A stretch of 64,000 bases of DNA, taken from assembly GCA_944327085.1 (NCBI GenBank), contig CALVGG010000005.1:1-64000 (forward strand). The letters are read 5' to 3'. This document shows positions 42,917 through 62,891 of this stretch, in pieces (within the stretch, counting starts at the first letter, position 1; each line of letters opens with the position of its first letter). The notes under the pieces are model-generated. The model saw nothing but the letters and a program-made list of their open reading frames with translations, had not been told where the DNA came from and made no database searches. The position numbers were made by a program, and so were the translations under genes. This DNA is from an uncultured Elusimicrobiales bacterium (lineage in GTDB: Bacteria > Elusimicrobiota > Elusimicrobia > Elusimicrobiales > Elusimicrobiaceae).

Positions 42917-42943
42917 GTGTTAGCTCCCATATCCTAGTTAGAA

Positions 42944-44068
42944 TTATAAACTGACAATCGGCAAAGTGAAAATAAATGTGGCCCCTTTGCCTAAACCTTC
43001 GCTCTGGGCCCAAATACGCCCGCCATGGTTTACCACAATATCCTTGGCAATAGACAGCCCCAACCCCAAACGACCCACGCGGTTCTTATCGCCCACCTGG
43101 GTAAAACTGGTAAACAAATTGGGGGCCTGGGCAGGGTCAATACCGTCACCAGAGTCCGTAACCGATACTTTAGCATTTTTTTCGTCCATTCTGCCAACGC
43201 GAATGGCAATTTTACCGTTATCCGGCGTGTGGCGAACGGCATTTTCCAAAATGTTGGAAATAACCTGGCGGATGCGTTTCTCGTCGGCAAATACGCCAAT
43301 TTCCCCCTCGCTTTCAAACGTGACGGCAATGCCGCGCTTGGCGGCTTTGGCTTTAAAAATTTCCGCCGTCTTTTTTAAGCTGGACGTCAGTTCAAACTTG
43401 GCTTTTTCTATACGCAGTTTGCCTTTTTCTATGGCGGCCCAGTCTACCAAGTCTTTAATTAAATGTTCAATTTGCCCTATGCTCTCATCCATAAACATCA
43501 TCTTGCGGGTTTGGTCTTCATCGGGGGATTGGATTTTCTTTTTCAGCATATCAAAGCTCATTTTCAACGTCATTAATGAGTTGGACAAATCATGCGACAC
43601 AATGGAAAAGAATTTGGACTTCATATTATTTAAACGGTCCAAATCCTGGTTACGCTGTTTCAGCTGGACCAATAACTCTTTGTTGCTTTGTTCCAGGAAA
43701 AACTTGTCCAAAGCGCGGGAAATGGTGCGTTTTAAATAATCAAAATCCACCGGTTTAACCAAAAAATCATAAACGGATTCCTGCATAGCTTCCATAATGG
43801 CGTTTAAAGAAGCGTAGGCCGTAATCATAATAATTTGGGAATCCTGGTTAAACGCACGGATTTTGCGGATTAACTCCAGCCCGGTTTCGTCCGGCAGGTT
43901 GTAATCCATTAAAATAATATTAAAAAATTCATTGGCGCAAATATCCAAACATTCCTTGGCATTGCCCGCCTGGTAGACTTTATATCCTTCAATCTCCAGC
44001 AAATCCACCATGGTTTCGCGCAAGTTATTGTCATCATCTACCACTAAAATTTTAGCTTCCTGCTCCAT
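42944..44068 (-). CDS. Receiver-histidine kinase hybrid, soluble
   Basis: 374 aa: N-terminal receiver (1-125; VVDDDNN, Asp55 in ILMDYNLPD, KPVDF), coiled linker, HisKA with the phospho-His around residue 158 (SIVSHDLSNSLMTLK) and HATPase_c (NILENAVRHTP, DSGDGIDP, GRLGLGLSIAK). No TM. The order receiver-then-kinase suits a phosphorelay in which the membrane kinase encoded upstream passes phosphate in. Its start overlaps the stop of that gene by 17 nt. Confidence 0.92.
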   Translation of the reverse strand: MEQEAKILVVDDDNNLRETMVDLLEIEGYKVYQAGNAKECLDICANEFFNIILMDYNLPDETGLELIRKIRAFNQDSQIIMITAYASLNAIMEAMQESVYDFLVKPVDFDYLKRTISRALDKFFLEQSNKELLVQLKQRNQDLDRLNNMKSKFFSIVSHDLSNSLMTLKMSFDMLKKKIQSPDEDQTRKMMFMDESIGQIEHLIKDLVDWAAIEKGKLRIEKAKFELTSSLKKTAEIFKAKAAKRGIAVTFESEGEIGVFADEKRIRQVISNILENAVRHTPDNGKIAIRVGRMDEKNAKVSVTDSGDGIDPAQAPNLFTSFTQVGDKNRVGRLGLGLSIAKDIVVNHGGRIWAQSEGLGKGATFIFTLPIVSL

Positions 44069-45947
44069 AACTGGTATCTCCCGGTTTTCTGTAAATTTTT
44101 AAATAAAGTTCAAAACAAGTGCCTTTGCCTTCCTGGCTGTGAATAAAAATTTTGCCTTTATGGCGCGCCATGGCTTTGCCCACCACAGCCAAACCAAGCC
44201 CCGTACCGCGCGCCTTGGTGGTAAAGAAAGGAGAAAATATCTTTCCGCGCAGTTCCGGGCTGATGCCGGGGCCTTCGTCAGCCACAAAAATACACACCAC
44301 ATTCTTGCCCACTTTAGTGCCTACGGTAATGGTGCCTTTATCCTGCATGGCTTCGGCCGCATTGGCTATTAAATTGCGAATGGCCTGTTTAATTTCTTCC
44401 GCATCCACTTTTATACGCACGCTTTCCGGGTCCAATGCTTCTTTAATGTGTATGGAACCGCTGACGGGAAAAGAAAGAATGATTTCTTTTAAATAGCTGT
44501 TTAAATCTATGGCGGTTAAAATTAGTTCCCGGCTGCGTGCGTAACCCAGCACCTCATTAATAATGCTGCTGGCTTGTTTAATTTCCGCATCAATAATGCC
44601 AAATTGTTTAATGAGTTTGGGCTCCTTAGGGGAAACAATGGTTTTAATTAACCGCGTGGCATTGCTGATTACCGCCAGCGGGTTGCGTATTTCGTGGCTG
44701 ATAATGGAAGCCATTTGCCCGATAGCCGCCAAACGTTCGGTTTTTACCAGTTCCCGGGTGGTTTCTTTCAGTTCCCGGGTGCGTTCTTCCACCCGTTTTT
44801 CCAGGGTGCGGTTCATCTGGGCCAGTTCCTGCTGGGATTTTAACACCTCGGCCTTGCGTTGTTTCAACGTGGCGGCCATATCCAAAAATACGCTGGCCAA
44901 GTCTCCAATTTCGTTATGGGGGATTTCCACATCTTGCGCCGTGGGCACATAATTGTCTTCTTCCCGCAGGCGAATGGCGGCCGCCTGCAAACGCCCCAAA
45001 GGCCGCGTGATGGGAATAATGACCAAATAGCTAACAATTACCACAAATAAAATCATCCCCACCACAATCACCAGTATATCCACTATGGAGCTGAAAGTAT
45101 CTTCCAGCAAGAGGGCGGTGGGTTGGTCGGCCGGCTGCATAACAAAAACCGTCCAGTGGGCTTGTGCCACCTCGGCCGATGCCACCAGCAGGCGCTGCCC
45201 GTCCGGCAGGACCACTTCCCCCGCGCGGCGGGCACCCAGTTGCCGTTCTATATATAAAGCTTTTTCTTTTAGTTCAGGCTGCGCCGTAAGCGCCAGCCCA
45301 TGCGGGGCGCCGGAATAAGAAATAATGGTTCCGTCCGAAGCAAACACCAGAATTTGTAAATCCGGAGGATACGCCAATGCCAGGCTTTCCCCCAGGTCTG
45401 CCAAGTCTAACTCCACCACCAATACGCCGGTTACTTCTTTATCTTCCAAATGTTCCCGGATAGGAAAGGCCATTAAAGCATACATTTGGTTATCGGCCCG
45501 TTTAACAGAGCCCACATAATCCCGCCCGTTCATCACGCAGGTGGTTAAAATATTGTCCAGCTCGGCCGCGTAACTAAAGCGGCTTTTGTCTTCACTGGAA
45601 TAAAAAAGCTGCTGCCCGTTGCCGTTTAAAACGGAAATATGTGTAATACCCGGGTTGCGTTCCCGAAGGTAATCAATATCTGCCTGGTCTATAAAGCGGT
45701 GGCCGCCAAAATCCGTATGTAAATCGGTAAAAATAGAGAACATATTGGCCTGGCGGGTCACATTATTACGTAAAATGGAAACCAAACGGCTGGCCACAGC
45801 CTGTTGTTTTTCTAACAGTTCATTATTTAACAGGCGGTTATTTACCCCCAGCACATGGTAACCTATAATAAAAATAGGCACAATGGACACAATGCTAAGC
45901 ACCAATAACGCTTTGGGGAATAATCCGCCTAATTTATATTTCACCAT
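44052..45947 (-). CDS. Membrane sensor histidine kinase
   Basis: 631 aa: TM1 about 11-31, a large periplasmic dCACHE-like sensor (about 35-285; HISVLNGNGQQLFYSSEDKS), TM2 about 293-315, HAMP (about 315-370), coiled coil, HisKA (SHEIRNPLAVIS, His near 417) and HATPase_c (NLIANAAEAMQ, DEGPGISPE, GTGLGLAVV). It senses a small molecule outside the inner membrane. It is the first gene after the terminator at 45980-46003, so it starts a regulatory-pilin operon with its own promoter. Confidence 0.93.
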   Translation of the reverse strand: MVKYKLGGLFPKALLVLSIVSIVPIFIIGYHVLGVNNRLLNNELLEKQQAVASRLVSILRNNVTRQANMFSIFTDLHTDFGGHRFIDQADIDYLRERNPGITHISVLNGNGQQLFYSSEDKSRFSYAAELDNILTTCVMNGRDYVGSVKRADNQMYALMAFPIREHLEDKEVTGVLVVELDLADLGESLALAYPPDLQILVFASDGTIISYSGAPHGLALTAQPELKEKALYIERQLGARRAGEVVLPDGQRLLVASAEVAQAHWTVFVMQPADQPTALLLEDTFSSIVDILVIVVGMILFVVIVSYLVIIPITRPLGRLQAAAIRLREEDNYVPTAQDVEIPHNEIGDLASVFLDMAATLKQRKAEVLKSQQELAQMNRTLEKRVEERTRELKETTRELVKTERLAAIGQMASIISHEIRNPLAVISNATRLIKTIVSPKEPKLIKQFGIIDAEIKQASSIINEVLGYARSRELILTAIDLNSYLKEIILSFPVSGSIHIKEALDPESVRIKVDAEEIKQAIRNLIANAAEAMQDKGTITVGTKVGKNVVCIFVADEGPGISPELRGKIFSPFFTTKARGTGLGLAVVGKAMARHKGKIFIHSQEGKGTCFELYLKIYRKPGDTSYGAGS

Positions 45948-48432: not shown

Positions 48433-49794
48433 CTAACGTATGCCGGTTAATTCTTCCACCTTTTGCAAGCCGATGGCAGCATCCGTATTGCCCGGGTCTA
48501 ACTGTACGGCCTGCACCCAGGCTTCGCGGGCGCGCTCGTAATCGTCTTGGTTGAAGGCGTCCAAACCTTCCACGTATTTTTGGCGGGAAGCAGCGCGCGC
48601 TTCTTCCGACACGCGGCCCGTGGTGGGCGTTAATTCAGGCAAGGTTTCGTTTACACCCACTGTTTCCGGCAGCGGTTCGGGTTCTTCCGGCTGAGGAACC
48701 GGCTTGGTAACGGTGGTGGTTTCGGTAATTTCTTCCACAATATTGCCTTGGGCATCCGTGGTGCGTTTTACGGTGCGTTTGGTCTTTTCCGCCGCGGCGC
48801 GCAAAGCGGCTTCTTTGGCATTGCGGGCCTTTTTAATCCAGGTGTCCATTTCGGCCGTATTGGCACCCCATTTTTTGGCTTTGGTCCAGTATGCAATGGC
48901 GGAGTCATACTTGCCGTTGCCATACGCTTTGCTGCCGGCATTGGCGTAGCCGTCATAAATTTCTTCTTTCAGCTGCATCATGTATTTTTGCACGCGCTGG
49001 TCGCCGGGTTGTATTTTAATAATCCGTTCAAATACGGAATAAGCCTCCACAAATTGCCCTTGGTTATAATAGGCCATGGCTTGTTCCATAGCGTCCTGCA
49101 CCTGTTGTTTGCGCAGCAGGTTTTCCGTCTGGGAAATTTTGGTAACCAGGCTGGAGTCTTCTTTGCGAATCATCAACGCATTATACCAATTATCCAAAGC
49201 GGTTTGATAACTGCCGGCATCATAAGCCGTATCCCCGCGGCGTACATATTCGGCCGCAATATCGGCATTGATTTTGCGTTTCCAGGTCTGGGCTTTGCTG
49301 TTGCCGGGGCGAATGGTTAAAATTTCATCCAACTTTTGGTTGGCTTCCACCAGGCGGCCGCTGTCATACAGGCGCAACGCTTCCTGAAATTTGGCCTCTA
49401 TTACCTGAGACTCGGAAACCGTACCATATGTACCCATATGGTTGGCCTGCATGGCCAGGGTTTGGGCTTGGGTAAAGTTAGGGTCTATGCTTAAAATGGT
49501 TTGGGCCAGTTCTTGTGCGCGCTGGTAATCCCCGTGTTTATACAGCTGGTAGGCATTTTCGTACACCATGCGCAGCGTATAGTTTTGAATGCGCTGTTTT
49601 TCCAACTGAACGGTGGATAAATATTGCTTGCGTTCTTCCACATCGTTTAAAGTGCCTAAGGAAATTTTGCTTAAATCCAACAGCATGCCCGCTTCTTTAC
49701 CGTGCTGGCGGACTGGAATTTCCCGCAGAACCGGGGCAGCCACAGACGATATGGCCGTTACAGCAAACAGAGCAAACAAGAAATGTTTTTTCAT
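48433..49794 (-). CDS. Exported TPR protein of the Tad operon
   Basis: 453 aa. Signal peptide 1-20 (MKKHFLFALFAVTAISSVAA), no lipobox. TPR-like repeats from about residue 75 to 330 (AYQLYKHGDYQRAQELAQTIL; EALRLYDSGRLVEANQKLDEIL; ALDNWYNALMIR), a charged linker with TRTTD and Pro/Glu-rich parts (about 335-400), and one last TPR (KYVEGLDAFNQDDYERAREAW). It takes the place of TadD, the TPR pilotin of Tad systems, but is larger and not a lipoprotein. It follows tadC in the operon. Confidence 0.75.
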   Translation of the reverse strand: MKKHFLFALFAVTAISSVAAPVLREIPVRQHGKEAGMLLDLSKISLGTLNDVEERKQYLSTVQLEKQRIQNYTLRMVYENAYQLYKHGDYQRAQELAQTILSIDPNFTQAQTLAMQANHMGTYGTVSESQVIEAKFQEALRLYDSGRLVEANQKLDEILTIRPGNSKAQTWKRKINADIAAEYVRRGDTAYDAGSYQTALDNWYNALMIRKEDSSLVTKISQTENLLRKQQVQDAMEQAMAYYNQGQFVEAYSVFERIIKIQPGDQRVQKYMMQLKEEIYDGYANAGSKAYGNGKYDSAIAYWTKAKKWGANTAEMDTWIKKARNAKEAALRAAAEKTKRTVKRTTDAQGNIVEEITETTTVTKPVPQPEEPEPLPETVGVNETLPELTPTTGRVSEEARAASRQKYVEGLDAFNQDDYERAREAWVQAVQLDPGNTDAAIGLQKVEELTGIR

Positions 49795-49806: not shown

Positions 49807-50700
49807 TTAAAAACTAAGCCCGCCCTTAAAAAAGCCTGAAATCATAGGGGCAAGAATTAAAATAAAAATAGTGGGGAATATGAAAAAGAACAGCGGAAAC
49901 AACATTTTGGTAGAAGCCTGCGCGGCCACCTTTTCGGCCAGGCTTAAACGGCGGGAGCGCAAATCCGTTGAGAAGTTGCGCAGCAAATCCACCAGGCTGG
50001 TACCTAATTCATCCGACTGTTTAATAAGCCCCACCAATGAACGGACCTCCTGCACACCCGTACGGGCGGTAAGACGGTCCAACGCTTCGCGCCGGGAATA
50101 GCCCAGCCTAATTTCATTGATGGTTTTTTCCAATTCCTCTTCCAAAACGGTTTTTTCTTTGGCTATTTTAATAATACGTTCAAAAGCGGTTAAATAGTCT
50201 AAGCCGGATTCAATAATCAAAGCGGCTAAATCCACCGTAGTGGAAAAGTTACCCAAAATTTCCGCCTGGCGCTTTTGAATTTTGCTTCTTAAAATGATGT
50301 CCGGCAAATAAAACCCCACGGGAAAAGCAATTACCGCCAATACAAAACTATTAAAAATAATCAATGCCCCCACCGGGAAAGCCAACGCCAACCCCACCTT
50401 TAAATACAAAATATCCACCGGCTGGGGTGTATCCGGGCTGCCCAGCTGCAGGTGCATTTCTTCCAAAGGCTGTTCCAAATGAAACGCGTGCAGGCAAAAC
50501 AAGGCAAGACGGTCAAAAAATTTATCCGGGTTCAATTTAGAAAAGCTGGAGGTGGATTTATATTTACGCACGGCCACGTCCACCAGCGTTTCTTTTTCTT
50601 CTTTGGGGGAAAGCAACATCAACACCCCAATAAACAACGCGATGGTTCCAATAATAGCACAAACGCCCAATATTAAACGTAAGCCCAAAGAGACTTCCAT
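49807..50700 (-). CDS. tadC: Tad inner-membrane platform protein TadC
   Basis: 297 aa. T2SSF-type platform protein: TM near the N-terminus (LRLILGVCAIIGTIALFIGVLML), two in the middle (about 105-140), a cytoplasmic helical domain with FSTTVDLAALIIESGLDYLTAFERI and TRTGVQEVRSLVGLIKQSDELGTSL, and a C-terminal TM (MLFPLFFFIFPTIFILILAPMI). It works with TadB and the ATPase to push pilins out of the inner membrane. Its ATG shares one base with the tadB stop. Confidence 0.9.
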   Translation of the reverse strand: MEVSLGLRLILGVCAIIGTIALFIGVLMLLSPKEEKETLVDVAVRKYKSTSSFSKLNPDKFFDRLALFCLHAFHLEQPLEEMHLQLGSPDTPQPVDILYLKVGLALAFPVGALIIFNSFVLAVIAFPVGFYLPDIILRSKIQKRQAEILGNFSTTVDLAALIIESGLDYLTAFERIIKIAKEKTVLEEELEKTINEIRLGYSRREALDRLTARTGVQEVRSLVGLIKQSDELGTSLVDLLRNFSTDLRSRRLSLAEKVAAQASTKMLFPLFFFIFPTIFILILAPMISGFFKGGLSF

Positions 50701-52385
50701 TATACTTTCACCTCGCCCAATTTCTTAATCACTTTCATACCGATACAAATCCAGATCACACAAACAAAGAAAATCCCCAACCCCAACGGAGTGGAATAGA
50801 ACGAAATCATATCATCGGGGCGGAAAACAAACATTACACCCAACATTAAAAACGGCATAATGCCCACCACCACAGACTGGATCTTCTGCTGCGCCGTCAT
50901 GGCCTGCAGTTTTTCTTCCAGCTTGCTTTCCTCGCGGATATTTTCCACCAGGCGGGAGAAAATAACCGTTAAGTTACCGCCCACTTGCCGCTGAATAACA
51001 ATCGCCTTAATGGTATAGCTTAACATGCGGCTGTCTACGCGGTCGTTCAAGCCGTCCAAGGCTTTTTCAAAAGGGGTACCCAGTTGATAGTTTTTAATCA
51101 CCAAGCCAAATTCGTCCGAAATTGGGGGACGCATTTCCGTGGATACTTTTTCAAAACCTTGCACAATATCCATACCGGAACGCAAAGAGTTAGAAAGCAA
51201 AATCAGCGCGTCCATCAGCTGGGCATTGATTTTGCGTCCGCGGGCTTTTTTAAGGGAGTCCAATACCGCTTCCGGCATACGGATACTGACAAACACCCCC
51301 ATAGCCACAAAAATTAAAAACATAAACACGCCGCTAAATCCGCCCGTGTTAATCCCGGCCAGCAACCCAAAAAAGGCAAATACCCCTATGGTACCAAAAA
51401 CGATATAACGAATGTCTATGCTTAAAAACTGGCGGTTGAAATCTTCCGCCCAGGCCACGCTTTTCACGCGGTAATTTTCCACCATCAGTTCAATGCTTTG
51501 GCGTTTTACTTCCAACAATAAAAATACCGCCAAACCGGCCAACGCACTGCCAATAAGCAGCATAATCCAAAAAATCAATCTTTCTGCTGCAGTGGTTTGC
51601 AAATTTTTAGGGTCCGGTGGGAACACCGGCACCGCGCTGGACATAAACTCCGAATACAACTGGTTGGAAAGCACCACCACCGCCTGTACGGCGCGGCGGT
51701 ATTTGTCTTCCCGTTCTTTAGACGGGCTGGAAAAAGATTCTATGGTGCTGAAAAATTCGCTGTTAATCAATTCCAGCGTGGCCAGCATGGCCCGGCCGCG
51801 GCCGTCCATACTGTTTTTCATAATTAAAGGTTTGGAACCAAAAAGCAAATCTTTGTTTAAGCGGTCCAACGTGGCCACCAAATTGATGCGGTTACCCACA
51901 TAACCGCGGGCAAGTTGGTCCATAGAAATAGGCTGGGAAGGATCCATGGACGTGTTGGCGCGGTCCAAATACAAATAGACGTTAGAAAATGCCTGGCGCC
52001 ACAAATCGGCCTCGCTGTAGGTGCCTTCACCGGGGATATACACCACTTTGGTCTTATCCATACGGGAAAGTTCCGCTTCTTTATGCACAGTTACCACTTT
52101 GCCGGTAGAATCTTTTGTCTGCACATCCTGCCCTTCTATAAACCATTTGGGCGGCTTAATTACTGCGCCTGCATTGGGGCATTGTTCCGGCACGGTTTGC
52201 ATTTTTTTGTCATTGGGCACTTTTACATCAAACATTTCCGCCAGCGCAGCCATTTTAAACATGGCGCATTCAATGCGTTTTTTGTCGTTTCTGGTTAAAC
52301 CGCGCGCAGAAACCGCCGCCGGGGCCACAAGCACACCGGCTGTAAATGTAAAAATAAAAAGAGGAACCAAATATTTTTTTATCAT
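50700..52385 (-). CDS. tadB: TadB platform protein with an added exported N-terminal domain
   Basis: 561 aa, against about 300 for a normal TadB. Residues 1-28 form a cleavable-looking signal peptide (ending VSARG), 29-260 an extra, probably periplasmic, helical domain with two Cys, followed by a TM at about 267-290. The usual TadB part starts after that: paired TMs at about 325-380, the cytoplasmic T2SSF domain (LMDALILLSNSLRSGMDIVQGFEKV), and two final TMs. GGGGAG precedes the ATG. The fusion places a sensing or anchoring domain on the platform. Confidence 0.88.
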   Translation of the reverse strand: MIKKYLVPLFIFTFTAGVLVAPAAVSARGLTRNDKKRIECAMFKMAALAEMFDVKVPNDKKMQTVPEQCPNAGAVIKPPKWFIEGQDVQTKDSTGKVVTVHKEAELSRMDKTKVVYIPGEGTYSEADLWRQAFSNVYLYLDRANTSMDPSQPISMDQLARGYVGNRINLVATLDRLNKDLLFGSKPLIMKNSMDGRGRAMLATLELINSEFFSTIESFSSPSKEREDKYRRAVQAVVVLSNQLYSEFMSSAVPVFPPDPKNLQTTAAERLIFWIMLLIGSALAGLAVFLLLEVKRQSIELMVENYRVKSVAWAEDFNRQFLSIDIRYIVFGTIGVFAFFGLLAGINTGGFSGVFMFLIFVAMGVFVSIRMPEAVLDSLKKARGRKINAQLMDALILLSNSLRSGMDIVQGFEKVSTEMRPPISDEFGLVIKNYQLGTPFEKALDGLNDRVDSRMLSYTIKAIVIQRQVGGNLTVIFSRLVENIREESKLEEKLQAMTAQQKIQSVVVGIMPFLMLGVMFVFRPDDMISFYSTPLGLGIFFVCVIWICIGMKVIKKLGEVKV

Positions 52386-52396
52386 TTTATGCTCCC

Positions 52397-54715
52397 CTAT
52401 TTAACCGCCGGAGGAGGAGGCGGAACAACCGCCCCCGCTGCCTTGCCGGCAGCTTGTGCGGGGGTTAAAAGCGGTTTGCCGTTTTCATCAAAAGGCACCG
52501 CATTTTTGGTAAAAATATCTTCCGGAAGTGGGACACCCTTGGCCTTAAAATCGCCAAAGAAAGAAGGAATATTGCCCGTAGGTGCAAAGAAACCTTCCAC
52601 CTTGCCGTTTTCATCTACGCCCGTTTGTACATATCTAAATAAATCCACAGATTGGATAACCCCATCCTTTTGGCCGGTCATTTCGGTAATATAGGTTACC
52701 TTTCTGGACCCGTCCGAAAAACGGGAAAGCTGCACAATCATGTTAACGGCAGAAGAAATCATTTCACGAATAGCGAAAATCGGTAAATCCGCACCGGTTT
52801 GCATGCACATGGCTTCCAAACGAGACAGCCCGTCGCGCGGTGTATTGGCGTGAATGGTGGTTAAAGACCCTTCGTGACCGGTGTTCATAGCCTGTAACAT
52901 GTCCAAAGCTTCGGCGCCGCGGCATTCCCCTACCACAATGCGGTCAGGACGCATACGCAAGCAGTTTTTTACCAAATCCTGAATGGTAATGGCCCCTTTG
53001 CCTTCCACGTTTGGCGGGCGGCTTTCCAGCGAGACCCAGTGCGGCTGCTGCAGCCTAAGTTCCGCCGTGTCTTCCACCGTAATGATACGTTCATCGTGCG
53101 AAATATAGCCGGACAAAGCATTTAAAAATGTTGTTTTACCGGTACCGGTACCGCCGCAAACAATAATGTTTTTACGAATGCGCACACATTTTTCCAAAAA
53201 GTCCATACATTCGCGGCTGATGGTGCCGAAGCGGAAATAATCCTCCGGCCCGAAAGGTTTTTGAGAGAAGCGGCGAATGGTAAGCGTAGGGCCGGATACC
53301 GCCAACGGCGCAATAATGGCGTTTACACGGGAGCCGTCTTTCAAACGGGCGTCCACCAGCGGGACGGATTCGTCTATACGGCGGCCCAAGGGGGATACAA
53401 TGCGTTTAATAACCTGCACAACCTGCTCATTATTGCGAAATTTATATTTGGTCAGCGTCAGTTTACCTTTTTGTTCAATAAAAATTTTATCAAACGCGTT
53501 TACCATAATTTCGGTAACGCTGGGGTCTCTCATTAAGTTTTCCAGCGGCCCCAAGCCCAAAATTTCATCCAACAGTTCCGAGCTAAAACGCATGCGCTGT
53601 TCACGCGAAAACTGCAGGTTGGGTTGTTTTTGTAAAATATCATCCACAATAGTAGCTACACGTTTGCGGGTTTGCTCACTGGCGGTGCTTTCGTCGCTAA
53701 TTACAATATGTTCAATTTCCAACGTGCGCACCACTTCTTTATGTACTTTTTGTTTTAAATCATCCCAAAAAGACATTTTGGTTTTGTTGGCGGCAGAGTT
53801 GGAATCATCTTCCGCGGCAAAGTGGGAATTAGCCGCCTGTGTATCCCCACCTTGGAAAAGGATGGGGCTCCAAATTTCTTTGGCGGCTTGGGTAAATTCT
53901 TCGTCGGTTACTTCGGCCACCCAATCTTTGGGAGCCGGTTTTAAATCCCGTATTTGGGCTAAAATTAAACGAAGCCCTTTTATCCACTCGCTTTGCGGAT
54001 TGACGATAATTTCAATTTCGCGCCGGTTGGCAGAGGCCATAATGCCTTCGTCCCACGGCAGGAAAACATCAATATTGCGCCCCAGCAAAGACGTATACAC
54101 ACGCTCCATTTCTTCATAAGGGATAGAGCCGGGCGTATCATAAGCATTGCAAATTACGCTGATGCGGTCCAGCGGGTAGCGCTGTTCTTTATAATCATTA
54201 AACAACTGTACGGTGGAATTTAAATGGGAACGCGTAGCATGCGTAACCCAAAAAATCTTGTCGGAAATATCAAAAGCAAACGCCTGCATGGGAAAGCTGG
54301 AATCCACATCCAAAAAGATATCAAAGGTTTGGGACAGGCGCGATAAAATGGGAATTAAAATTTTAGGGCTAATACTGGCCACTTGTGCACGGGTATTACC
54401 TAACGGAAGCACCCCCACCCCCCACTGAGACATGGAAATCTTCCCGCGCAAAAGCCCCCCCACCACGGCAATGTTGGTATTACCCAGCGTGCGCAAAATA
54501 TCGGCCACGCTGACGGGCTTTTTAATGTTTAAATAAAAACTATGCTCCTGCCGGGCCAAAGGGTCCAGCGGGACGATAAGAACAGGCCTTTTTTGAATAC
54601 CCGCCCATCCCAATGCCAAATTGAGCACAAGCGTGGTCTTCCCCGCTCCTTCTTTCGGGCCGGAGAATGTAATAATCTTAGCGTCTGTTTTTAAAGAAGG
54701 GTCCTGTTCAGCCAT
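52397..54715 (-). CDS. CpaE/TadZ-CpaF/TadA fusion ATPase
   Basis: 772 aa. Residues 1-265 are a MinD/ParA-type domain with deviant Walker A KEGAGKTT (21-28), as in the CpaE/TadZ localisation factor but without its receiver-like part. A linker (about 270-330) leads to a full CpaF/TadA secretion ATPase: N-terminal domain 340-480, Walker [10 protein letters not shown] (521-529), Asp box VEDTAEL, Walker [11 protein letters not shown] (591-600), His box [13 protein letters not shown] (612-624). A Pro-rich tail ends the protein. Both functions are usually separate genes. It powers pilus assembly from the cytoplasm. Confidence 0.92.
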
Positions 54716-54720
54716 AACTG

Positions 54721-55467
54721 TTATTCAACAACCTCTACCGTTACAAACAAGAACAAAGAGCGCTGGTCTTCGGTTACGTCTTTGCTCTTAAAAAACAAGC
54801 CGATTAACGGCAAACGGCCCAAGAAGGGCACGCGGTCTTCCGACACGTTGCGGCTGCTGCTTTTTAATCCGCCGATTACCAATGTCTCCCCGCTGTTGAG
54901 CTCCACATGGGTTTGCACCAAACGTTCCAAAATAGAATAAGAGGTGGAAGTACCAATCATAATGGCGCGGGAATAATCCGGCTGGGATACTTTTAATTCC
55001 AACTGCAAGTCAATAATATTGCCGCGTTCCGGAATGATGGTAGGCGTTACGTTTAACAATACCCCGTAAGTTTCCATCTGCGTCCCCACGGCACCCTGGC
55101 TGTTAACCACCGGGTACGGTATACGCCCACCCACAGATATGTTAGCCTGATTGCCCGAGCTGGTAACAATTTTAGGGTTAGATAAAATCTGCGCACGGCC
55201 TTCGTTTTCCATCAGCCTTAAACGGGTGGCTACTGCCGTTTTGCGTTCAAAATCCCCCAAAGAGAAAATCCCGGGGATGGCGGCTTCTTCAAAGTCAAAG
55301 ATTTGGTTCCATGCAAAACCTTTAACAGAACTCATAGAGCCGGCAATTTCAACCACGTCGGCGCTGACGGATACCAAACGCGTCTTTTTGGCGTGCACGC
55401 ACGGGGCCGCCAAGGCCACAAATAACACGGCGACAGATAGTTTAGTAATAAAGTTTGTTTTTATCAT
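54721..55467 (-). CDS. Short CpaC/RcpA-type secretin
   Basis: 248 aa. Signal peptide about 1-26, then a short lead and the secretin domain (about 90-248): RLMENEGRAQILSNPKIVTSSG, GGRIPYPVV, VTPTIIPERGNIIDLQLEL, LNSGETLVIGGLKSS, the C-terminal FLGRLPLIGLFFKSK block. Tad secretins commonly have 400-600 aa with N0/BON domains, which are missing here. The protein should form the outer-membrane channel, but with no periplasmic arms to meet the inner complex. It lies 5 nt before the fusion ATPase. Confidence 0.88.
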   Translation of the reverse strand: MIKTNFITKLSVAVLFVALAAPCVHAKKTRLVSVSADVVEIAGSMSSVKGFAWNQIFDFEEAAIPGIFSLGDFERKTAVATRLRLMENEGRAQILSNPKIVTSSGNQANISVGGRIPYPVVNSQGAVGTQMETYGVLLNVTPTIIPERGNIIDLQLELKVSQPDYSRAIMIGTSTSYSILERLVQTHVELNSGETLVIGGLKSSSRNVSEDRVPFLGRLPLIGLFFKSKDVTEDQRSLFLFVTVEVVE

Positions 55468-55479
55468 GATGGTTCCTGT

Positions 55480-56232
55480 TTACTGAAATAATTTTTCAAA
55501 TGTAGCAATTTCCATCAGGTAGTTGGCCCCATCGCCGGGGGAACGCAAGATGACGGAAATTTCCCCTTCGGATTGCGCCAAAGCCAAATACTGCGCATCA
55601 CGCGGGGAAAGAGCCAAAGACAGGGTAGAGCTGTCCGTATAAGCGGCAGCTTCTTCTTCTTTGCTTTGCAAGCCGGCGGCACTCTTGGCATCCAAACCTT
55701 GGCCCAAGTTCGCACCGACGCCCAACACTTTAATATTCTGTAAAAGGGTTACCGTTACTTTCTGTTGCGCACCGTTCTTCATGACAGCAGAGAAAGTTAA
55801 CAAAATATCCACGTTGTCATCCGGTTTAATCATACCGGCAGAAGCAGAATCCACCCGAATGATAAAACCTCTCATTCTGGCCGGGATTTTACTGGAAAGG
55901 CCAGCCTCCGGAGACAAAGAGGTAATGGCGTATTTAGAAATTTGATTTCCTTTGGGGATTTGAATGCGGGCAACAGCGTTTTCTACGGTTGAAAAATCCG
56001 CATCGGTAGAATAGGTTAATGCATCTTTTTGTACGTATTTGGCCGGTATGGGCACCCATTTTATAGAGTCCCTCTTAATTACTTCCCGCTCTTTAATATC
56101 CCGCACGGGCACAAATACCCGTTTAATGACTTTGTCATTTTCTAACTTGCTGGAAGCGCTGTTGACAATCAGCAAATAAACCAATGCCGCGCCCAGCGCC
56201 ACAATGAACGGCAAGAATACTCCTTTTTTCAT
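55480..56232 (-). CDS. cpaB: Tad assembly protein CpaB/RcpC
   Basis: 250 aa: one N-terminal TM (about 5-24), then a SAF-type beta-clip region (VFVPVRDIKEREVIKRDSIKWVPIPAKYV) and the RcpC-like part (ARMRGFIIRVDSASAGMIKPDDNVDILLTF, LLQNIKVLGVG, LSLALSPRDAQYLALAQSEGEISVILRSP). It is a periplasmic part of the Tad apparatus, working with the secretin encoded directly downstream. The length is normal for the family. Confidence 0.92.
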   Translation of the reverse strand: MKKGVFLPFIVALGAALVYLLIVNSASSKLENDKVIKRVFVPVRDIKEREVIKRDSIKWVPIPAKYVQKDALTYSTDADFSTVENAVARIQIPKGNQISKYAITSLSPEAGLSSKIPARMRGFIIRVDSASAGMIKPDDNVDILLTFSAVMKNGAQQKVTVTLLQNIKVLGVGANLGQGLDAKSAAGLQSKEEEAAAYTDSSTLSLALSPRDAQYLALAQSEGEISVILRSPGDGANYLMEIATFEKLFQ

Positions 56233-56268: not shown

Positions 56269-56757
56269 CTATCTTTTATCCGTACTTAAATACATCTTTT
56301 CCACAGGCATGCGAGCCTCGGTTTCTATAAAACGGATCCCGTCTCTGCGGGGTTTACTGGCTAAAATAAAACTGCTGCCGGGAAAAAGCAATTTTACAGG
56401 ATATTTCAGCTCCACCACAATATCCTGATGGCGGTGCGGAGAATACAACGGATCCCGGCCCGTTGTTTCCATTTTTATACTCACTTTTATTCTGTCCCCG
56501 GCCGCCCCAAATACCCGGCGCTTGGCCTGGGATATTTTTTGCTGCACCGTCCAACTATTTGGCTGCCCGCTGGGCTCCTTTACGGCTACCATAGCCCCTA
56601 TACGGGCAAATTCATAGGAAGCGTGATTTGCCAAAAGCGTGTGGTATGCAATATTGCCATATTCCAGGATGAAAAAAACCATCAACATAAATATCGGCAA
56701 TATTAGCAGTAACTCCACCGTTACCTGCCCATCACGCCCCCTACGAAAAAATTTCAT
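56269..56757 (-). CDS. TadE-like pseudopilin 1
   Basis: 162 aa. RRGRDGQVTVELLLILPIFM is a TadE prepilin signal (Gly cleavage point, Glu at mature position 5), followed by a hydrophobic helix to about residue 32 and an extracytoplasmic mixed domain without Cys. It should be cut by a prepilin peptidase and function as a minor pilin. It lies between the major-type Flp genes and cpaB. Confidence 0.88.
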   Translation of the reverse strand: MKFFRRGRDGQVTVELLLILPIFMLMVFFILEYGNIAYHTLLANHASYEFARIGAMVAVKEPSGQPNSWTVQQKISQAKRRVFGAAGDRIKVSIKMETTGRDPLYSPHRHQDIVVELKYPVKLLFPGSSFILASKPRRDGIRFIETEARMPVEKMYLSTDKR

Positions 56758-56772
56758 GCGTGCGCCCCGATA

Positions 56773-56997
56773 CTACTCAATGCTGTTTACGCCGCCTAAA
56801 ATCTTGGCTTTTACGTTTTCAAACACTTCCGGCATCATTTTCTTAACCAAACCGCCCACTAACAGAGCCACACCTACCACAACGGCTAACATCAACATGT
56901 ATTCCACAGTGTTCTGGCCCTCTTTCTTTTTCAAGCAAGACAAGGCGGCATTTTTTACAGCTTCCAGCTTGTTTTCCAAAGCAATAATGAACTTCAT
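56773..56997 (-). CDS. Flp-type pilin 1
   Basis: 74 aa. A 27-residue basic leader ends KKKEG, then QNTVEYMLMLAVVVGVALLVGGL: Gly cleavage, Glu at position 5, Tyr at position 6, all as in Flp pilins. The mature part has about 47 residues, the expected size for a Tad major pilin. GGAGGAG lies before the ATG at 56997. The leader is long for Flp (normally under 20). Confidence 0.9.
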   Translation of the reverse strand: MKFIIALENKLEAVKNAALSCLKKKEGQNTVEYMLMLAVVVGVALLVGGLVKKMMPEVFENVKAKILGGVNSIE

Positions 56998-57024: not shown

Positions 57025-57210
57025 TTAATTTGCATCATATACTTCTAAAATTACTTTTGCACCCTGTTCAAACTGCATGGGTACAATGTGGGAATAAAAA
57101 GCATAAAAAGCTAAAAACGCACCAAATAACGCCGCCGCAGTAATTACATATTCAATAGCGGTTTGGCCTGTTTTACTTTTAAGTATATGCGGTTTTTCCC
57201 CTTTTATCAT
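57025..57210 (-). CDS. Flp-type pilin 2
   Basis: 61 aa: leader MIKGEKPHILKSKTG then QTAIEYVITAAALFGAFLAFYAFY, a Flp-like prepilin with Glu and Tyr at mature positions 5 and 6. It lies three bases after the PorV-like gene and before pilin 1. The mature part (about 46 residues) is the same size as pilin 1 but differs in sequence, so the filament may be mixed or the two may form separate fibres. Confidence 0.85.
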   Translation of the reverse strand: MIKGEKPHILKSKTGQTAIEYVITAAALFGAFLAFYAFYSHIVPMQFEQGAKVILEVYDAN

Positions 57211-57213
57211 ACA

Positions 57214-58179
57214 TTAAAACTGGATACCAATAGCTATCTGTTGCGAAGTGCCCAATGCCCCAAACGGCGTTACGGCATAATCAATGGACGCCCCGTACCC
57301 AAATAATTCAGAGCTGTAAATACCAAACCCAAACGATACTTTGGACGTTTCATCCAGCCCCAAACTTTGCAAACCTTTGCTGTCGCTAATACCGGTATTG
57401 TCACGCGTATAATACCCAACACGCAAATCAAACCGGGCCACGGAAAGCAAATCTTCCGGAATATGCACTTCCAAACCTACACCATAGCGGGTGTCGTCGT
57501 CTTCATAGTCCATCCATTCGCCGGAAATGGTGAAATAACGCGTATTAATATCCGCACCTAAGCGCAAACCTTGCGGCATATCTTCACTATCGCCAATATT
57601 CACCAAGGCGCCGCCTAAGCCCAACCAATTTACCAAACGCAATTTTGCACCTACGTCAAAACCTACGCTGGTATAGCGGTTGGTGTCTAACTTTTCATTA
57701 ATATATTTAGCGGTACCGCCAATTTGCAATTTCTGGCTGAAAAACCCGCGGGCCAAAGATACGCTGCCCACAAAGTTCTGCACCGGGTGCGCACCGGAAT
57801 ATTGCGGGCGGCCCTGTACGTCGCGGTAATCGAAACCGCCCATATCCATATAGTTAAGCGTAACGCCTAAAATGGTTTTGCCCAACGGCTGCAAATACGC
57901 TAACGTGCGCGCTTTATAACCTTGCAAATAATCCAAGTAAGAAAATTGCAATTCGCGCGAAGTGGCTGAAGCAGAACCCGCAGGGTTCCAAAACAGGGCT
58001 TCCGGCCCGTCGGCAATAGATACATACGCATTACCCAAAGCCTGCGCACGCGGAGAGCCGGCATCAATCTTTAAAAACTGGCTTCCGCTGGTACCGGCCC
58101 AGTCGTCAATGGCATAAGCCGGAACATGCACCAAACCGGCAATTAAACAAGCTGCTAAAAGTTTTATTTTTATATTCAT
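57214..58179 (-). CDS. PorV/PorQ-family outer-membrane protein
   Basis: 321 aa. Signal peptide 1-23 (ending AYA). The N-terminal pattern FLKIDAGSPRAQALGNAYVSIADGPEALFWNPAG is diagnostic of the PorV/PorQ (UPF0164) family. The remainder is beta-strand rich, and the protein ends AIGIQF with a terminal Phe, as barrels do. In Bacteroidota PorV belongs to type IX secretion; here no other T9SS gene is visible. It is the gene after a secreted protein with a T9SS-like C-terminal region, suggesting a dedicated partner. Confidence 0.88.
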   Translation of the reverse strand: MNIKIKLLAACLIAGLVHVPAYAIDDWAGTSGSQFLKIDAGSPRAQALGNAYVSIADGPEALFWNPAGSASATSRELQFSYLDYLQGYKARTLAYLQPLGKTILGVTLNYMDMGGFDYRDVQGRPQYSGAHPVQNFVGSVSLARGFFSQKLQIGGTAKYINEKLDTNRYTSVGFDVGAKLRLVNWLGLGGALVNIGDSEDMPQGLRLGADINTRYFTISGEWMDYEDDDTRYGVGLEVHIPEDLLSVARFDLRVGYYTRDNTGISDSKGLQSLGLDETSKVSFGFGIYSSELFGYGASIDYAVTPFGALGTSQQIAIGIQF

Positions 58180-58193
58180 AAATCCTTTCTACC

Positions 58194-61100
58194 TTACGGG
58201 ACCAAAATTTTCACTACTTTTTGGCAGTGTTCACGCCCGTTTTGGGCTTTGAAATCCACCAAGCCGAAATACACACCGCGGGCAATCTTTTTGCCGTGCT
58301 GGTTGGTCTTATCCCAGCGGCAGCGCAAGGCCGCATTGCGCACATTGGCAAAAGAATCATCCGCCACTGTGCCGCTGATATTATTATCCGGGCTGAAAGA
58401 CAAGGTTTGCCCCATGGTGGTGGTATAGTTATTTGCGTCCACGCAGGTGTAGCCGCTGTCACGTATTAACGTACCGGACAAGGTATACAACTTGATAGAC
58501 ATCGTACCCGGAACAGGCATCTTGGTTACTTCTAACGTACCGTAGGCCTGGCGCAACGGGTTCGGATAGAAGAAGACGGTCTTTTCCCAGTCTTCGCACA
58601 CGAAGCGTCCGTCACCCACGGCAATGGTGGCTTTATGCAGGTTTTGATACTGATACGTATCGGCCACATAATTCACTTTCCAGTCTGCCGCATCTAACGA
58701 GGTATCGTCCCCCGGCACAATTTCGCCGGTAATGGTATCAATATCGGCCGAGTTGGTGGCCGTTACGAAGCGGAACGGATAGGTTCCGTCCGGCACTTCC
58801 TGCTGGGCATAGTCGCGTCCGTCCCACTCTTCGGTAATTAACGTGGTGGAAGGGCGGATACCCACAATGGTGCGTACCAATACTTCATTAATATCCTGCA
58901 CTTCTTTACCCGTGGCCGGGTTGCGCAAGGTACCTTTTTGATAGTCATAAATGGTGGTACCCGGCTTAAAGATTTGGATGGCTACTTTCATGGGCACGGA
59001 AATCTGGTAGCTTATCGGCACCACTTGCCCGCGCGCAGCTTGGGCATAACCGTCCACTTCGGCCAAGTCAAACACTTTCAGCAAGTCCGCATTGAGTGTA
59101 AGGCTCTTTACCGTTTCCTGATACAAGTTGGCATCCGGATAGTTCTTGGCAATTAAACGCACTTCGTAAATGGCAGATTTTACATAGTAGCCATTATCGT
59201 CCGTACCGTCCCAATACACTTTGCGGATGGCGTTTGCGTCAAAATGGCCCGTATCCAAAATGGTGGTGGTAGCCAAATGTTTGCAGACATCACCCACCGC
59301 ATTGTTTTTGGTGCTGCCGTCCGTGGCCGACGTGGTGCACACATTGGGCTGCAAGGCCACAATCTGCACGTCCACCGTAGAGGCGCGGGATACCGCAAAG
59401 TTTACTTCATACGGCGGAACAAAAGCCGTGCCGCTGGATGTATTAAACAGCTGGGGCTGGTTCGGATACACAGCCGTAGAGCCTTCCAGGAAGAACACCG
59501 GCCCGCGGGTTACGTTAATGCGGGAATTGGGTTTTTCCGTAGCGTAAATATAGCCCACTTGCTGCACATCTTCCTGCGTTTTAAACGGCTCGCTGACGGC
59601 ATAGTCAAACTGGGTACCGTCCGTACCGGTTGTATAGGCCCGGTCCGCATAATATAAGGATACGGGCTCATTGGAGCGGGCAGAGATATAGAACGGATAC
59701 TGCCCATCCGGCACCATTTCATAGGCGCAGGTTTTCAAATCCGTAGAACCTTGGCACTGCTGGGAAGAAGGATTGTAGAAATACAACGCATCCCATTCTT
59801 CCACAATGCGGGCCCCTTCACCCGGGCGGGTGGAGCTGGCATCAAAGGTTTTTACAGGCTGCAAACGTACGTCAAGCGCCGTATAATTTTGGTTAGCGGG
59901 ATAGTTTGTAAATGTTTGGTCATTTACATAAATACATTTTTTACCGGTAGACGCCACTTTGGCCGGGTCCACATAACCGTGGGTCATAATGTCCGTATCG
60001 GTCTGGTCGCACACGCGGGGCGGCCAGGTGGCCATTACGCTCTTGGTGGTGGTTACCGTGGTTTGTACTTTATATTTATTTTCCGCATAGCAGGCGGCCA
60101 GTTCCGTCGGGTCCGTAATGCCGGGGCACTGGGCAGCCAGTTCATCCTGCGTGGCCAAGGCAACTTCCTCTTTGGTGGTAGTTACCGTGGTGATGTTATT
60201 TTCAAAATCTGTTTGGGTGTCATACGTAGTGCCCACCGTGGCAGACGGCACATACGTGGTGGTGGGGCCTTCCACCGTGGTGGAAGAAGTCTGCCCGTTT
60301 ACCAAAGTATTTGCCGTGGGGATGACCACATCCTTATTATAAATGTTCACCTGAACATTCATGGCTTTAGACAAATAATAGCTGATGGTGGCTTTGGCTT
60401 CGCTGTCGCCATACACGTCCGTAGTGCCTACATCAACCACGTGGTACAAGTCCACCGGGAACACCGCCGTGGCCGTGGTTTGCACTTCGGGGAACATGGC
60501 ATCTTTAGAAGTTACCGCAAACACATAAGTGCCAGGGCCAACCATACGGCCGGCATCGTCGCGCCCGTCCCAGCTTAAGGTATTAATTTGCTGAGACACC
60601 GCAGCAGTGCCTTCCTGCGGCGTGAGCATTTTAACCGTCACACCGGCCGAGTTCTGCACGCTGGCTACAGCCACCGCATCGCGGGACAAAATGTATTTGA
60701 ACACGAACGGATCCAACCCGTATGCCGTGGGGCTGGAGCCCACAGTGGAATAGCTGACCGGTTGGATGGTAATATCCACCAATCCGCGTTCCACCGGCAT
60801 CGTGCCAACTGTATAGGTAGCGGTCTTTACGGCATCATACGTAACACCGGCCGCATTGGTATACTGGGAACCTTCCGCATACGGAATTTCAGCCCACAGT
60901 ACATATACATAGTTACCGTCCGGCATGGGGGCACCATAGAAGAACTGTTTGTTGTCCAACGACGGGATTGCCGTGGGCGTACCGCTGACAGGGCACACAG
61001 CCGTATTGGTACAAGTACCGTCCCACTTGGTGGTATAGGTAGCGCGGGAACCGCGTTCTTCCACAGAGGAGTAGAGCAGGAAGCCTGTACCCGCTTTAAT

Positions 61101-62747
61101 GGCAGGGCCTTGCGCCGTACCGGTGGCAGACGGCACCAAAGAAGTAAATTGTGTACCGGGCGAGTATACCTGGAAGTATACTTTGGAAGCTTCCGTGGGT
61201 ACATATTTAATGGTGGCATAAGCTGTGGCCATTTTATTCAAGCCGGCAACCACCACGTCCGTCAGTTTCAAAGGATCTAAGGACAGCTGGCGGGTTACCG
61301 CGCGGGAGAAGTCAATCCCCGGCCATTCATCCTGAGATTTGGCCTGGATGGACACCACATAGTTACCCGCAGGCAACAGGCGACCGCTGTCGTCACGCCC
61401 GTCCCAAGAGTCAAACTCTACCAGTTGTTTATCGGAAGACTGGCCTTTCATACCTTCGCCCAAGCGGGGCTGCCAATCCACCAACAGGCGGCGCAAGTTG
61501 GCAGTATCTAAATTGGCCGGGTCAGCCGTGCCGGTATAAGAGCTGTCGCTAGAGGTGGAAGCATCATAAATAGCGATGCGCACGTCCGCATCTTTACTTA
61601 ACCGATACGCTAACGTATACGGCTGAGCGGAAACAGACGTGATATCACCCACCACCGTAGGCGTGCTGCGCACGGTGTGCACGTTGGTAACGTCCACCTG
61701 TATCGGGATTTGGTTTTCACCCGGGTAAGGGACAGAAGAATCAATGGTAATTTTATCTACGGTAATGTTGTCTCCGGGCACATCGCTCTGCACCGTGGCG
61801 CGGAAGCCGTACTGGCCGTTCATTTTACCAAATTCACCGCTGATTTCATAAGAGCCGTCCCACCCGGCGCAGAAAGACATTGGGCTGCCGTACTCTTTAC
61901 CGTTATTATCAAAAATTACACAGTTGCTGGAACCAGATACTCCGCCATATTGGTTTGTACAACACTTTTGTGGATTGTTGTTATCGCAGCCTGTGGTAGT
62001 AAACTTGAAACAAGAAGCATCTGCTTTATCAGTTCCGCACTGAGAAGGACCCGAAGAAGCACCCTCAGCCACACACCAGCTGGTTGTACTGGTACCGTTA
62101 CAATAATACAAAGCGGAAGGGCAGGTGGTTCCGTTGGAGGCATCATAACAATGGTAAGAACCGCAAATATAATCTTCCGCCTCCACCGTGCCGGTTTCGC
62201 CGGCGCCAGGATACATCGTCAAGGTGCGGATAGGCGGCGTATCGCTGCTGCTGGCTATATTTTTGCCGTTTTCATATTTAACAATATCAAATTTAATGGT
62301 TTGTAAAGGGAAAGCAATGGAATAGGTACTCATCGCCAAAGGCTTATTGGCGCAGTAAACCGTCATACATAAACCCAAGCACTGGTTAGGATAATTATTG
62401 GCAACACCCGGGCCGGGATAAGGCTGGTCATATTCAATTAAAGCGGAGTTCTCCCAAGGGTCAGCATAAGTGGAACCGTTGGCATTAGTAATATCGGTTG
62501 ATACAAAGCTGCGGTTTGACGGATCTGTTTTTAAGTTACCGCTAAAATCAGCCGCACTCCAACCGCAGTATTGCTGGGCCGTTTCCGTTGCCCCATTTTG
62601 GTAAAACACCCCGGCAAATTTTACGTCTGCCTGGGCCTGGCCAAACACGGGGGTGGCCGTCAATACAAAAAACAAAGGCAAAGCCGCCAAAAAGGCTACT
62701 TTACCAAGTAAAATTTTCCACATGCTTTTATTAGTAATTGTGTTCAT
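58194..62747 (-). CDS. Large secreted protein with FlgD-type Ig repeats (1517 aa)
   Basis: The ATG at 62747 opens the signal peptide (LLGKVAFLAALPLFFVLTATPVFG); farther upstream ATGs only add a hydrophilic extension. N-terminal third: unique, with a Cys-rich patch of about a dozen Cys (residues about 190-300). From about 400 on, at least six FlgD-Ig-like units follow, each ending in W-D-G-x-D-(D)-x-G...G-x-Y (around residues 449, 729, 985, 1182, 1307, 1479). Near 1392 a YPNPLRQAYG motif starts a region like the T9SS C-terminal sorting domain; the end is KVVKILVP. Probably a cell-surface adhesin or pilus-associated protein. Confidence 0.85.
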   Translation of the reverse strand: MNTITNKSMWKILLGKVAFLAALPLFFVLTATPVFGQAQADVKFAGVFYQNGATETAQQYCGWSAADFSGNLKTDPSNRSFVSTDITNANGSTYADPWENSALIEYDQPYPGPGVANNYPNQCLGLCMTVYCANKPLAMSTYSIAFPLQTIKFDIVKYENGKNIASSSDTPPIRTLTMYPGAGETGTVEAEDYICGSYHCYDASNGTTCPSALYYCNGTSTTSWCVAEGASSGPSQCGTDKADASCFKFTTTGCDNNNPQKCCTNQYGGVSGSSNCVIFDNNGKEYGSPMSFCAGWDGSYEISGEFGKMNGQYGFRATVQSDVPGDNITVDKITIDSSVPYPGENQIPIQVDVTNVHTVRSTPTVVGDITSVSAQPYTLAYRLSKDADVRIAIYDASTSSDSSYTGTADPANLDTANLRRLLVDWQPRLGEGMKGQSSDKQLVEFDSWDGRDDSGRLLPAGNYVVSIQAKSQDEWPGIDFSRAVTRQLSLDPLKLTDVVVAGLNKMATAYATIKYVPTEASKVYFQVYSPGTQFTSLVPSATGTAQGPAIKAGTGFLLYSSVEERGSRATYTTKWDGTCTNTAVCPVSGTPTAIPSLDNKQFFYGAPMPDGNYVYVLWAEIPYAEGSQYTNAAGVTYDAVKTATYTVGTMPVERGLVDITIQPVSYSTVGSSPTAYGLDPFVFKYILSRDAVAVASVQNSAGVTVKMLTPQEGTAAVSQQINTLSWDGRDDAGRMVGPGTYVFAVTSKDAMFPEVQTTATAVFPVDLYHVVDVGTTDVYGDSEAKATISYYLSKAMNVQVNIYNKDVVIPTANTLVNGQTSSTTVEGPTTTYVPSATVGTTYDTQTDFENNITTVTTTKEEVALATQDELAAQCPGITDPTELAACYAENKYKVQTTVTTTKSVMATWPPRVCDQTDTDIMTHGYVDPAKVASTGKKCIYVNDQTFTNYPANQNYTALDVRLQPVKTFDASSTRPGEGARIVEEWDALYFYNPSSQQCQGSTDLKTCAYEMVPDGQYPFYISARSNEPVSLYYADRAYTTGTDGTQFDYAVSEPFKTQEDVQQVGYIYATEKPNSRINVTRGPVFFLEGSTAVYPNQPQLFNTSSGTAFVPPYEVNFAVSRASTVDVQIVALQPNVCTTSATDGSTKNNAVGDVCKHLATTTILDTGHFDANAIRKVYWDGTDDNGYYVKSAIYEVRLIAKNYPDANLYQETVKSLTLNADLLKVFDLAEVDGYAQAARGQVVPISYQISVPMKVAIQIFKPGTTIYDYQKGTLRNPATGKEVQDINEVLVRTIVGIRPSTTLITEEWDGRDYAQQEVPDGTYPFRFVTATNSADIDTITGEIVPGDDTSLDAADWKVNYVADTYQYQNLHKATIAVGDGRFVCEDWEKTVFFYPNPLRQAYGTLEVTKMPVPGTMSIKLYTLSGTLIRDSGYTCVDANNYTTTMGQTLSFSPDNNISGTVADDSFANVRNAALRCRWDKTNQHGKKIARGVYFGLVDFKAQNGREHCQKVVKILVP

Positions 62748-62891
62748 TGTGCAATTTTCCATAACCTTAAACCGGCTACTGTTTAATTGAATATATTCCA
62801 AATCGATTGTGCCGTACCGATAATACGACGTGCCGGTCCAACGCATACAATATATTATATATAAAAATACGCGTCGTGCCTGCTTCTATAA

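Follow-up and report, generated by a model that had tools for sequence, protein, structure and literature searches.

A MinD-like ATPase domain fused to the CpaF-type Tad motor of an uncultured Elusimicrobiales bacterium, and its distribution across phyla

CpaF/TadA is the hexameric motor for both extension and retraction of the Tad pilus, and in well-studied bacteria its MinD-like partner is a separate protein, TadZ or CpaE. The hallmarks of TadZ/CpaE include a C-terminal amphipathic membrane helix and polar localisation, the latter said to have been attributed to the receiver domain by Xu in 2012. Among the wider relatives of this partner, FleN/FlhG and MinD act in placement, and in MinD/ParA biochemistry a signature lysine is assigned to contacts across the dimer.

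A comparison of 292 CpaF orthologues distinguished three architectures, bearing no addition (class I), a disordered tail (class II) or an FHA domain (class III), and a MinD-fused form is absent from the three named in its main text, as distinct from its supplementary list (PMC12019362). A role in modulating direction has been proposed for the N-terminal region of CpaF (PMC11300603, PMC12019362), and the three-helix bundle of the motor is predicted to contact the N-terminal helices of the platform proteins (PMC12019362). In situ work on Caulobacter, with docking and AlphaFold3 predictions, has modelled CpaE around CpaF as six MinD-family dimers that the receiver domains are suggested to join, and the same source describes the role of the TadZ/CpaE receiver domain (PMC13170226). 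Described here is a CpaF motor that carries a MinD-like ATPase domain within its own polypeptide, an architecture beyond the three published classes that is both new and widespread. Among open-licence papers, no description of this fusion in print was found in the parts covered; the domain pair may be present in databases as an automatic annotation.

The fused protein and its Tad locus

The window, which is the whole stretch of 64,000 nucleotides analysed, contains an intact frame of 772 codons running from ATG to stop on the minus strand (54715-52397), and the plus strand across the same interval is interrupted by stops throughout. An earlier note, made from the DNA letters, had claimed that a MinD-like ATPase and a complete CpaF share this single frame, and the claim holds for the minus strand, with no stop between residues 265 and 340 of the assembled frame. 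The parts of the protein are as follows.

52397-54715, minus strand: fused TadZ-ATPase-CpaF (TadA) protein, 772 aa (single open frame; Pfam, NCBIfam and PDB sequence matches)
53936-54679, minus strand: ParA/MinD-type ATPase domain, residues 13-260, equivalent to the ATPase half of TadZ/CpaE (CbiA, hhalign and structure matches)
54632-54661, minus strand: deviant Walker A of the MinD-like domain, residues 19-28, a KEGAGKTT variant with signature lysine K21 and P-loop lysine K26 (sequence)
53774-53869, minus strand: disordered linker, residues 283-314 (pLDDT below 50; inside the fastest-evolving part)
52502-53773, minus strand: CpaF/TadA motor, residues 315-738, with three-helix bundle, NTD and ATPase domain (8rjf alignment)
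53132-53155, minus strand: Walker A of the CpaF motor, GGTGTGKT, residues 521-528 (sequence)

A domain search of the full protein recovers both halves, with Pfam matches to CbiA (CobQ/MinD/ParA) at residues 15-232 (E 1.5e-8, above the family cut-off) and to T2SSE (PF00437) at residues 387-665 (E 4.5e-63). The MinD-type character of the first 265 residues is further seen in a PDB sequence match to the ParA-family protein 3ea0 at residues 76-229, and residues 313-720 match Caulobacter CpaF (9e24; E 2.4e-115). The best NCBIfam match is TIGR03819 (TadA family ATPase; E 4.4e-100), its 335 bits lying under the cut-off of 373. No FHA domain was among the Pfam matches listed (25 of 42 families), and only about 12 residues precede the MinD-like domain. 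The statement that both Walker A motifs are intact stands for the lysines, K21 and K26 being present; the N-terminal motif is nonetheless a deviant variant, with Glu in place of Gly22 and with Pro (P49) at the leading Asp position of the motif that follows, D51 and D136 being kept.

An AlphaFold2 model of the single chain, built on an alignment of 58 fused sequences (A2), has a mean pLDDT of 82.1, with the N domain and the motor confident and the linker (283-314) as the stretch below 50; at a pTM of 0.53 the mutual placement of the domains is not readable from it. A single-sequence fold of the N domain (pLDDT 36.7) was set aside. Superposed with VIA-align, model residues 315-738 fall on residues 80-503 of CpaF 8rjf (Z 37.3, 419 residues, 44% identity), and on these alignments they make up a complete CpaF/TadA motor, with a predicted role as a hexameric pilus motor. 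Residues about 11-260 match FleN (Z 23.6), Chlorobium ParA (3ea0; Z 23.5), the dimeric E. coli MinD (3q9l; Z 21.1) and the ATPase part of Eubacterium rectale TadZ (3fkq, chain 120-354; Z 20.2).

The three-helix bundle, NTD, ATPase domain and Tad context are thus shared with CpaF of classes I-III (Caulobacter 9e24, 8rjf), whereas the N-terminal addition differs in being a folded MinD-like ATPase domain. The disorder up to the three-helix bundle that marks class II is not seen, residues 11-260 being predicted as a confident ATPase fold, and nor is the N-terminal FHA domain of class III, FHA-type CpaF N-extensions giving an hhalign probability of 0.1 against the N-domain profile. KilF of Myxococcus, an FHA-CpaF, likewise bears an extra folded N-terminal domain on its CpaF motor and is accompanied by a short secretin, but its added domain is FHA where the present one is MinD-like (PMC8460266). 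The general fold (Z 21-23.6) and the deviant Walker A are held in common with FleN/FlhG and MinD (5j1j, 4rz2, 3q9l); unlike those proteins, this domain is fused to a secretion motor and displays the KEGAGKTT variant and P49.

The fused gene occupies the tadZ-tadA slot of a Tad locus, with the secretin upstream and TadB and TadC downstream, and secretin, CpaB, TadB and TadC are all encoded alongside, as befits a CpaF/TadA.

48433-49794, minus strand: TPR protein in the TadD position (Pfam TPR)
49807-50700, minus strand: TadC-type platform protein (Pfam T2SSF)
50700-52385, minus strand: TadB-type platform protein, 561 aa, with a long N-terminal extension (Pfam T2SSF at 394-518)
54721-55467, minus strand: secretin, 248 aa, short, core only, directly upstream of the fusion (Pfam Secretin, E 2.6e-41)
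55480-56232, minus strand: CpaB/RcpC (NCBIfam TIGR03177, above cut-off)
56269-56757, minus strand: TadE-like minor pilin (Pfam TadE)
56773-56997, minus strand: Flp-type pilin candidate, 74 aa (Class_IIIsignal and Flp1_like, both under cut-off)
57025-57210, minus strand: possible second small pilin, 61 aa (by eye; without a Pfam match)

The secretin is nearly devoid of N-domains, and frames of Elusimicrobia measure 245-271 aa as opposed to about 520-590 aa in Omnitrophota and Bdellovibrionota. The TadB-type protein has a signal-like start in the long region before T2SSF, and most of its Elusimicrobia relatives are also long (527-585 aa, against about 290 in Bdellovibrionota). Between the tad genes and further TadE-like genes (40401-42043), and on the same strand as the former, lie a LuxR-type response regulator, a receiver-histidine kinase hybrid and a Cache/HAMP histidine kinase (42227-45947, minus strand), which are possibly tad regulators. 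On the other side, the frame at 58194-62846 (minus strand) encodes 1550 aa that contain FlgD-Ig repeats and match CHU_C (type IX sorting) weakly; beside it lies a 321-aa protein (57214-58179) of PorV/UPF0164 outer-membrane appearance by eye and without a Pfam match. The single Peptidase_A24 (prepilin peptidase) found in the genome is on a contig other than that of the tad locus (G000:C3:103192-103536; L257). A PHROGs search added nothing.

Relation to TadZ/CpaE

The first domain is identified, by profile and fold comparison, as the ATPase half of TadZ/CpaE without its receiver. In hhalign, the Elusimicrobiota N-domain profile (A3) aligned with a profile of ten split TadZ proteins (A1) at a probability of 100 (E 3.4e-45), over TadZ columns 159-403 of 422 only, past the receiver domain. 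When A1 was searched against 22 genomes, the two split controls matched over their full length (3-403 and 4-403 of 404; 536 and 530 bits), and a scan of both control TadZ proteins found the receiver domain PF00072. The fusion of the present genome matched TadZ positions 141-381 of 404, and in most fused genomes the fusion was the best match, beginning at profile position 116-144 of 404. Among the exceptions, the best match in G310 was another ATPase frame, and in the present genome, G311 and G312 a receiver-only response regulator came first (at window 42227-42916 in the present genome, where the fusion was the next row). A separate TadZ elsewhere in the genome was considered and set aside, as no full-length separate TadZ was among the A1 matches listed for the 20 non-control genomes, which include this one (95.5% complete, 12 contigs). 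At least 100 residues stand ahead of the MinD-like domain in just one of 133 fused frames.

The earlier note's description of CpaE joined to CpaF is therefore right for the ATPase domain, including its deviant Walker A with signature lysine, and wrong for the N-terminal (atypical) receiver, which is missing. Its further suggestion, that the fusion couples polar placement to the motor, is without evidence here, because the receiver domain, the part credited with polar localisation, is absent and no separate TadZ was found. Loss of the C-terminal membrane helix from the fused forms, though suggested by eye, is not claimed, a crude amphipathic-helix scan giving no separation of fused, split and shuffled sequences: it scored 19 of 133 fused linkers against a shuffled mean of 15.4, and 7 of 29 split tails against one of 5.2.

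Compared with TadZ/CpaE as represented by E. rectale 3fkq and the split TadZ of Chloroflexota and Bacillota, the fused form shares the ATPase domain, the signature lysine and the slot before tadA, and differs in lacking the receiver, in not being a separate protein and in its fixed 1:1 ratio to the motor. That the two partners are separate in described loci was borne out by the controls, in which a split TadZ lies beside TadA (29 of 201 places; Chloroflexota). A permanent 1:1 link between the TadZ ATPase and the motor is supported, and the expectation that a CpaF hexamer would carry six MinD-like domains finds support in the CpaF hexamer structures.

Distribution and descent of the fusion

The MinD-fused Tad motor is widespread, occurring in at least five phyla, and in several phyla it is the usual form. 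Single-frame fusions were found in separate genomes of Elusimicrobiota, Omnitrophota, Bdellovibrionota, Caldifarciminota (WOR-3) and Eremiobacterota, as well as on a contig titled Deltaproteobacteria, and a fusion unique to the window is refuted. A first search for relatives kept 80 genome loci, and independent assemblies of about 94-96% protein identity (L002; L085-L088) have the same unbroken frame. In searches of whole genomes, a CpaF relative was found in 237 of 294 Elusimicrobiota (E<=1e-40), all 114 Bdellovibrio-phylum and 71 of 145 Omnitrophota genomes. All 30 loci fetched from the Bdellovibrio phylum and all 30 from Omnitrophota are fused, these being the best 30 of each and so biased to top scores; unfused CpaF proteins (about 420-490 aa) are also numerous in Omnitrophota, and some genomes have no other match. 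The 201 CpaF places comprise 133 that are fused, 29 with a TadZ-like ORF nearby, 30 with CpaF alone and 9 with another long N-terminus. Matches were found in 9 of 80 WOR-3 genomes, 8 of them with a fused locus, and in 27 of 78 from Eremiobacterota, where 15 of 15 fetched loci are fused. Chloroflexota served as the negative control, with matches in 54 of 81 genomes; the 8 loci fetched all have two genes, and stops interrupt all 17 listed matches that span both domains.

Both domains are under strong purifying selection and the linker less so, dN/dS against nine close relatives being 0.012-0.064 in the MinD domain, 0.020-0.070 in CpaF and, where computable, 0.06-0.15 in the linker. From the end of the N domain to the start of CpaF the distance is 20-51 residues (5-95% range).

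All trees are unrooted. In that of the N domain, a single branch (SH-aLRT 98.8) parts 63 fused from 27 split rows, and Omnitrophota, the Bdellovibrionota type and two Elusimicrobiota groups each hold a branch of their own; trimming of the linker again parted 62 fused from 25 split rows (support 99). Thirteen loci, mostly with strongly decayed domains or odd frames (L124, L126-L133, L135-L137, L140), were omitted from the N-domain trees, as were L014, L051 and L056 from the trimmed one. In the CpaF-domain tree the fused state needs 3 changes over 130 rows (199 rows minus near-copies and ten long or odd rows) and 2 changes over 83, a set from which long rows were also removed, together with additional fused, split and unfused ones and the three unfused Elusimicrobiota paralogues L141-L143, which in the 130-row tree fall among fused rows. 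The fused rows lie together, not strictly on one side, and a single clade, tested on the 83-row set with groups chosen after a tree had been seen, has a p-AU of 0.68 with the held tree 10.3 log units better, a value compatible with one clade and no proof of it.

One old fusion is plausible because the fused ATPase domains form one branch as against split TadZ, and with later loss in some paralogues it is the simplest reading. Independent fusions in each phylum are not favoured, given the few changes in the CpaF tree and the outcome of the clade test; the reverse direction, fission of an ancestral fusion, is possible in trees without a root.

Possible roles of the fused domain

The active site of the N domain differs in its state between lineages. 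The window's class has both lysines in 39 of 43 rows, Omnitrophota in 32 of 37, the Bdellovibrionota type in all 38 and split TadZ in 11 of 29, with the signature lysine found in 40/43, 37/37 and 38/38 of the first three. Within the window's class, 39 of 43 rows have Glu for Gly22, 34 have Pro (P49) for the leading Asp of the motif that follows, and D51 and D136 are retained in 40 each. The signature lysine stands without the P-loop lysine in WOR-3 (8/8 and 0/8 loci) and in Eremiobacterota (14/14 and 0/14 readable loci, of 15), a pattern of residues that in these two phyla favours ATP-bound pairing over turnover. The other Elusimicrobiota classes retain the domain with both lysines in none of 18 rows and the signature lysine in 8; with the P-loop mostly gone and the domain kept, nucleotide-driven pairing is not the whole function everywhere. 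Several of their loci (L131-L133, L136, L137, L140) have about 250-300 residues before CpaF in which the N domain is barely visible to a profile search, and decayed N domains in a few rows reach an hhalign probability of 73 (an Endomicrobia-like set, named by eye). L138 is a long frame with an Elusimicrobia-type MinD domain (GPKQGVGKTAVC), and no CpaF match was found in its locus.

The reading preferred here, at a probability of roughly 0.5, is that a TadZ ATPase domain fixed to the N-terminus of CpaF clamps or regulates the ring through ATP-dependent pairing of neighbours. Each subunit of the hexamer would carry one MinD-like domain on a linker of about 20-50 residues, beside the three-helix bundle and at the N-terminal region of CpaF, the part proposed to modulate direction. 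On binding ATP, the domains of neighbouring subunits would pair face to face, as in MinD, with the signature lysine reaching across the interface, and the six N domains of a ring could form three dimers at most. The paired domains would stand in for a separate TadZ ring and may clamp, seat or gate the motor at the inner-membrane platform, slow or absent turnover making for a long-lived clamp rather than an oscillating positioner. In its favour, the in situ model of Caulobacter sets MinD-family CpaE dimers about CpaF. Points against such a clamp are the Gly22-to-Glu and P49 changes of the window's class, and the six CpaE dimers per ring of the Caulobacter model, which are twice what a 1:1 fusion allows; with half that number and no receiver to join them, the fusion cannot be built like that CpaE-CpaF assembly.

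Less probable, and the best placed of the alternatives, is that the N domain is a structural pseudo-ATPase, a passive scaffold for hexamer assembly or platform docking in which the nucleotide state is irrelevant. Its retention without a P-loop in other Elusimicrobiota classes fits such a role, as do the continued linkage of P-loop-less domains to A3 in hhalign (f21 set; probability 99.9, E 2.2e-37) and the scarcity of both lysines among the split TadZ proteins, yet a passive scaffold accords poorly with the near-constant lysine pair of the window's class and the Bdellovibrionota-type rows and with the low dN/dS of the MinD domain. That the fused domain is a positioning factor of the MinD/ParA type, placing the motor at the cell pole, is unlikely: FleN/FlhG and MinD are among its closest solved relatives, but the receiver domain is absent, as both the short leader of the fused frames and the late start of their TadZ matches indicate, and polar placement is no demonstrated part of the mechanism. 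Far more doubtful is a separation of the halves by cleavage or internal initiation, which would make the fusion genetic only; the disordered and fast-evolving linker would suit it, against which stand the short inter-domain distance kept over many lineages and the branch that sets the fused domains apart from split TadZ. An artefact of sequencing or assembly, such as a lost stop or frameshift, is refuted by recurrence of the frame in independent genomes across five phyla, and no point was found in its favour.

The in-ring clamp can be extended to a bolder and rather improbable proposal, namely that the fusions constitute a fourth class of Tad motor, descended from one ancient event and retained in five or more phyla, the predatory Bdellovibrionota among them, in which an ATP-bound trimer of dimers acts as a clutch that sets whether, and which way, the CpaF ring turns. 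If true, the 2:1 CpaE:CpaF model of Caulobacter would not be the minimal working unit and the receiver domain would be dispensable.

The way in which TadZ/CpaE and the Tad motor work together is unsettled, and a phylum-wide fusion supplies independent evolutionary evidence of a direct partnership. It sets the ratio at 1:1 and shows the receiver domain to be dispensable in these lineages. The Flp pilins of Bdellovibrio are needed for predation, and its motor Bd0111 is named simply TadA in the same source (PMC5430801); by analogy with the best 30 loci of its phylum, all of them fused, Bd0111 very likely has the same architecture. The fused proteins offer single chains for structure work, with Bdellovibrio as a tractable test organism.
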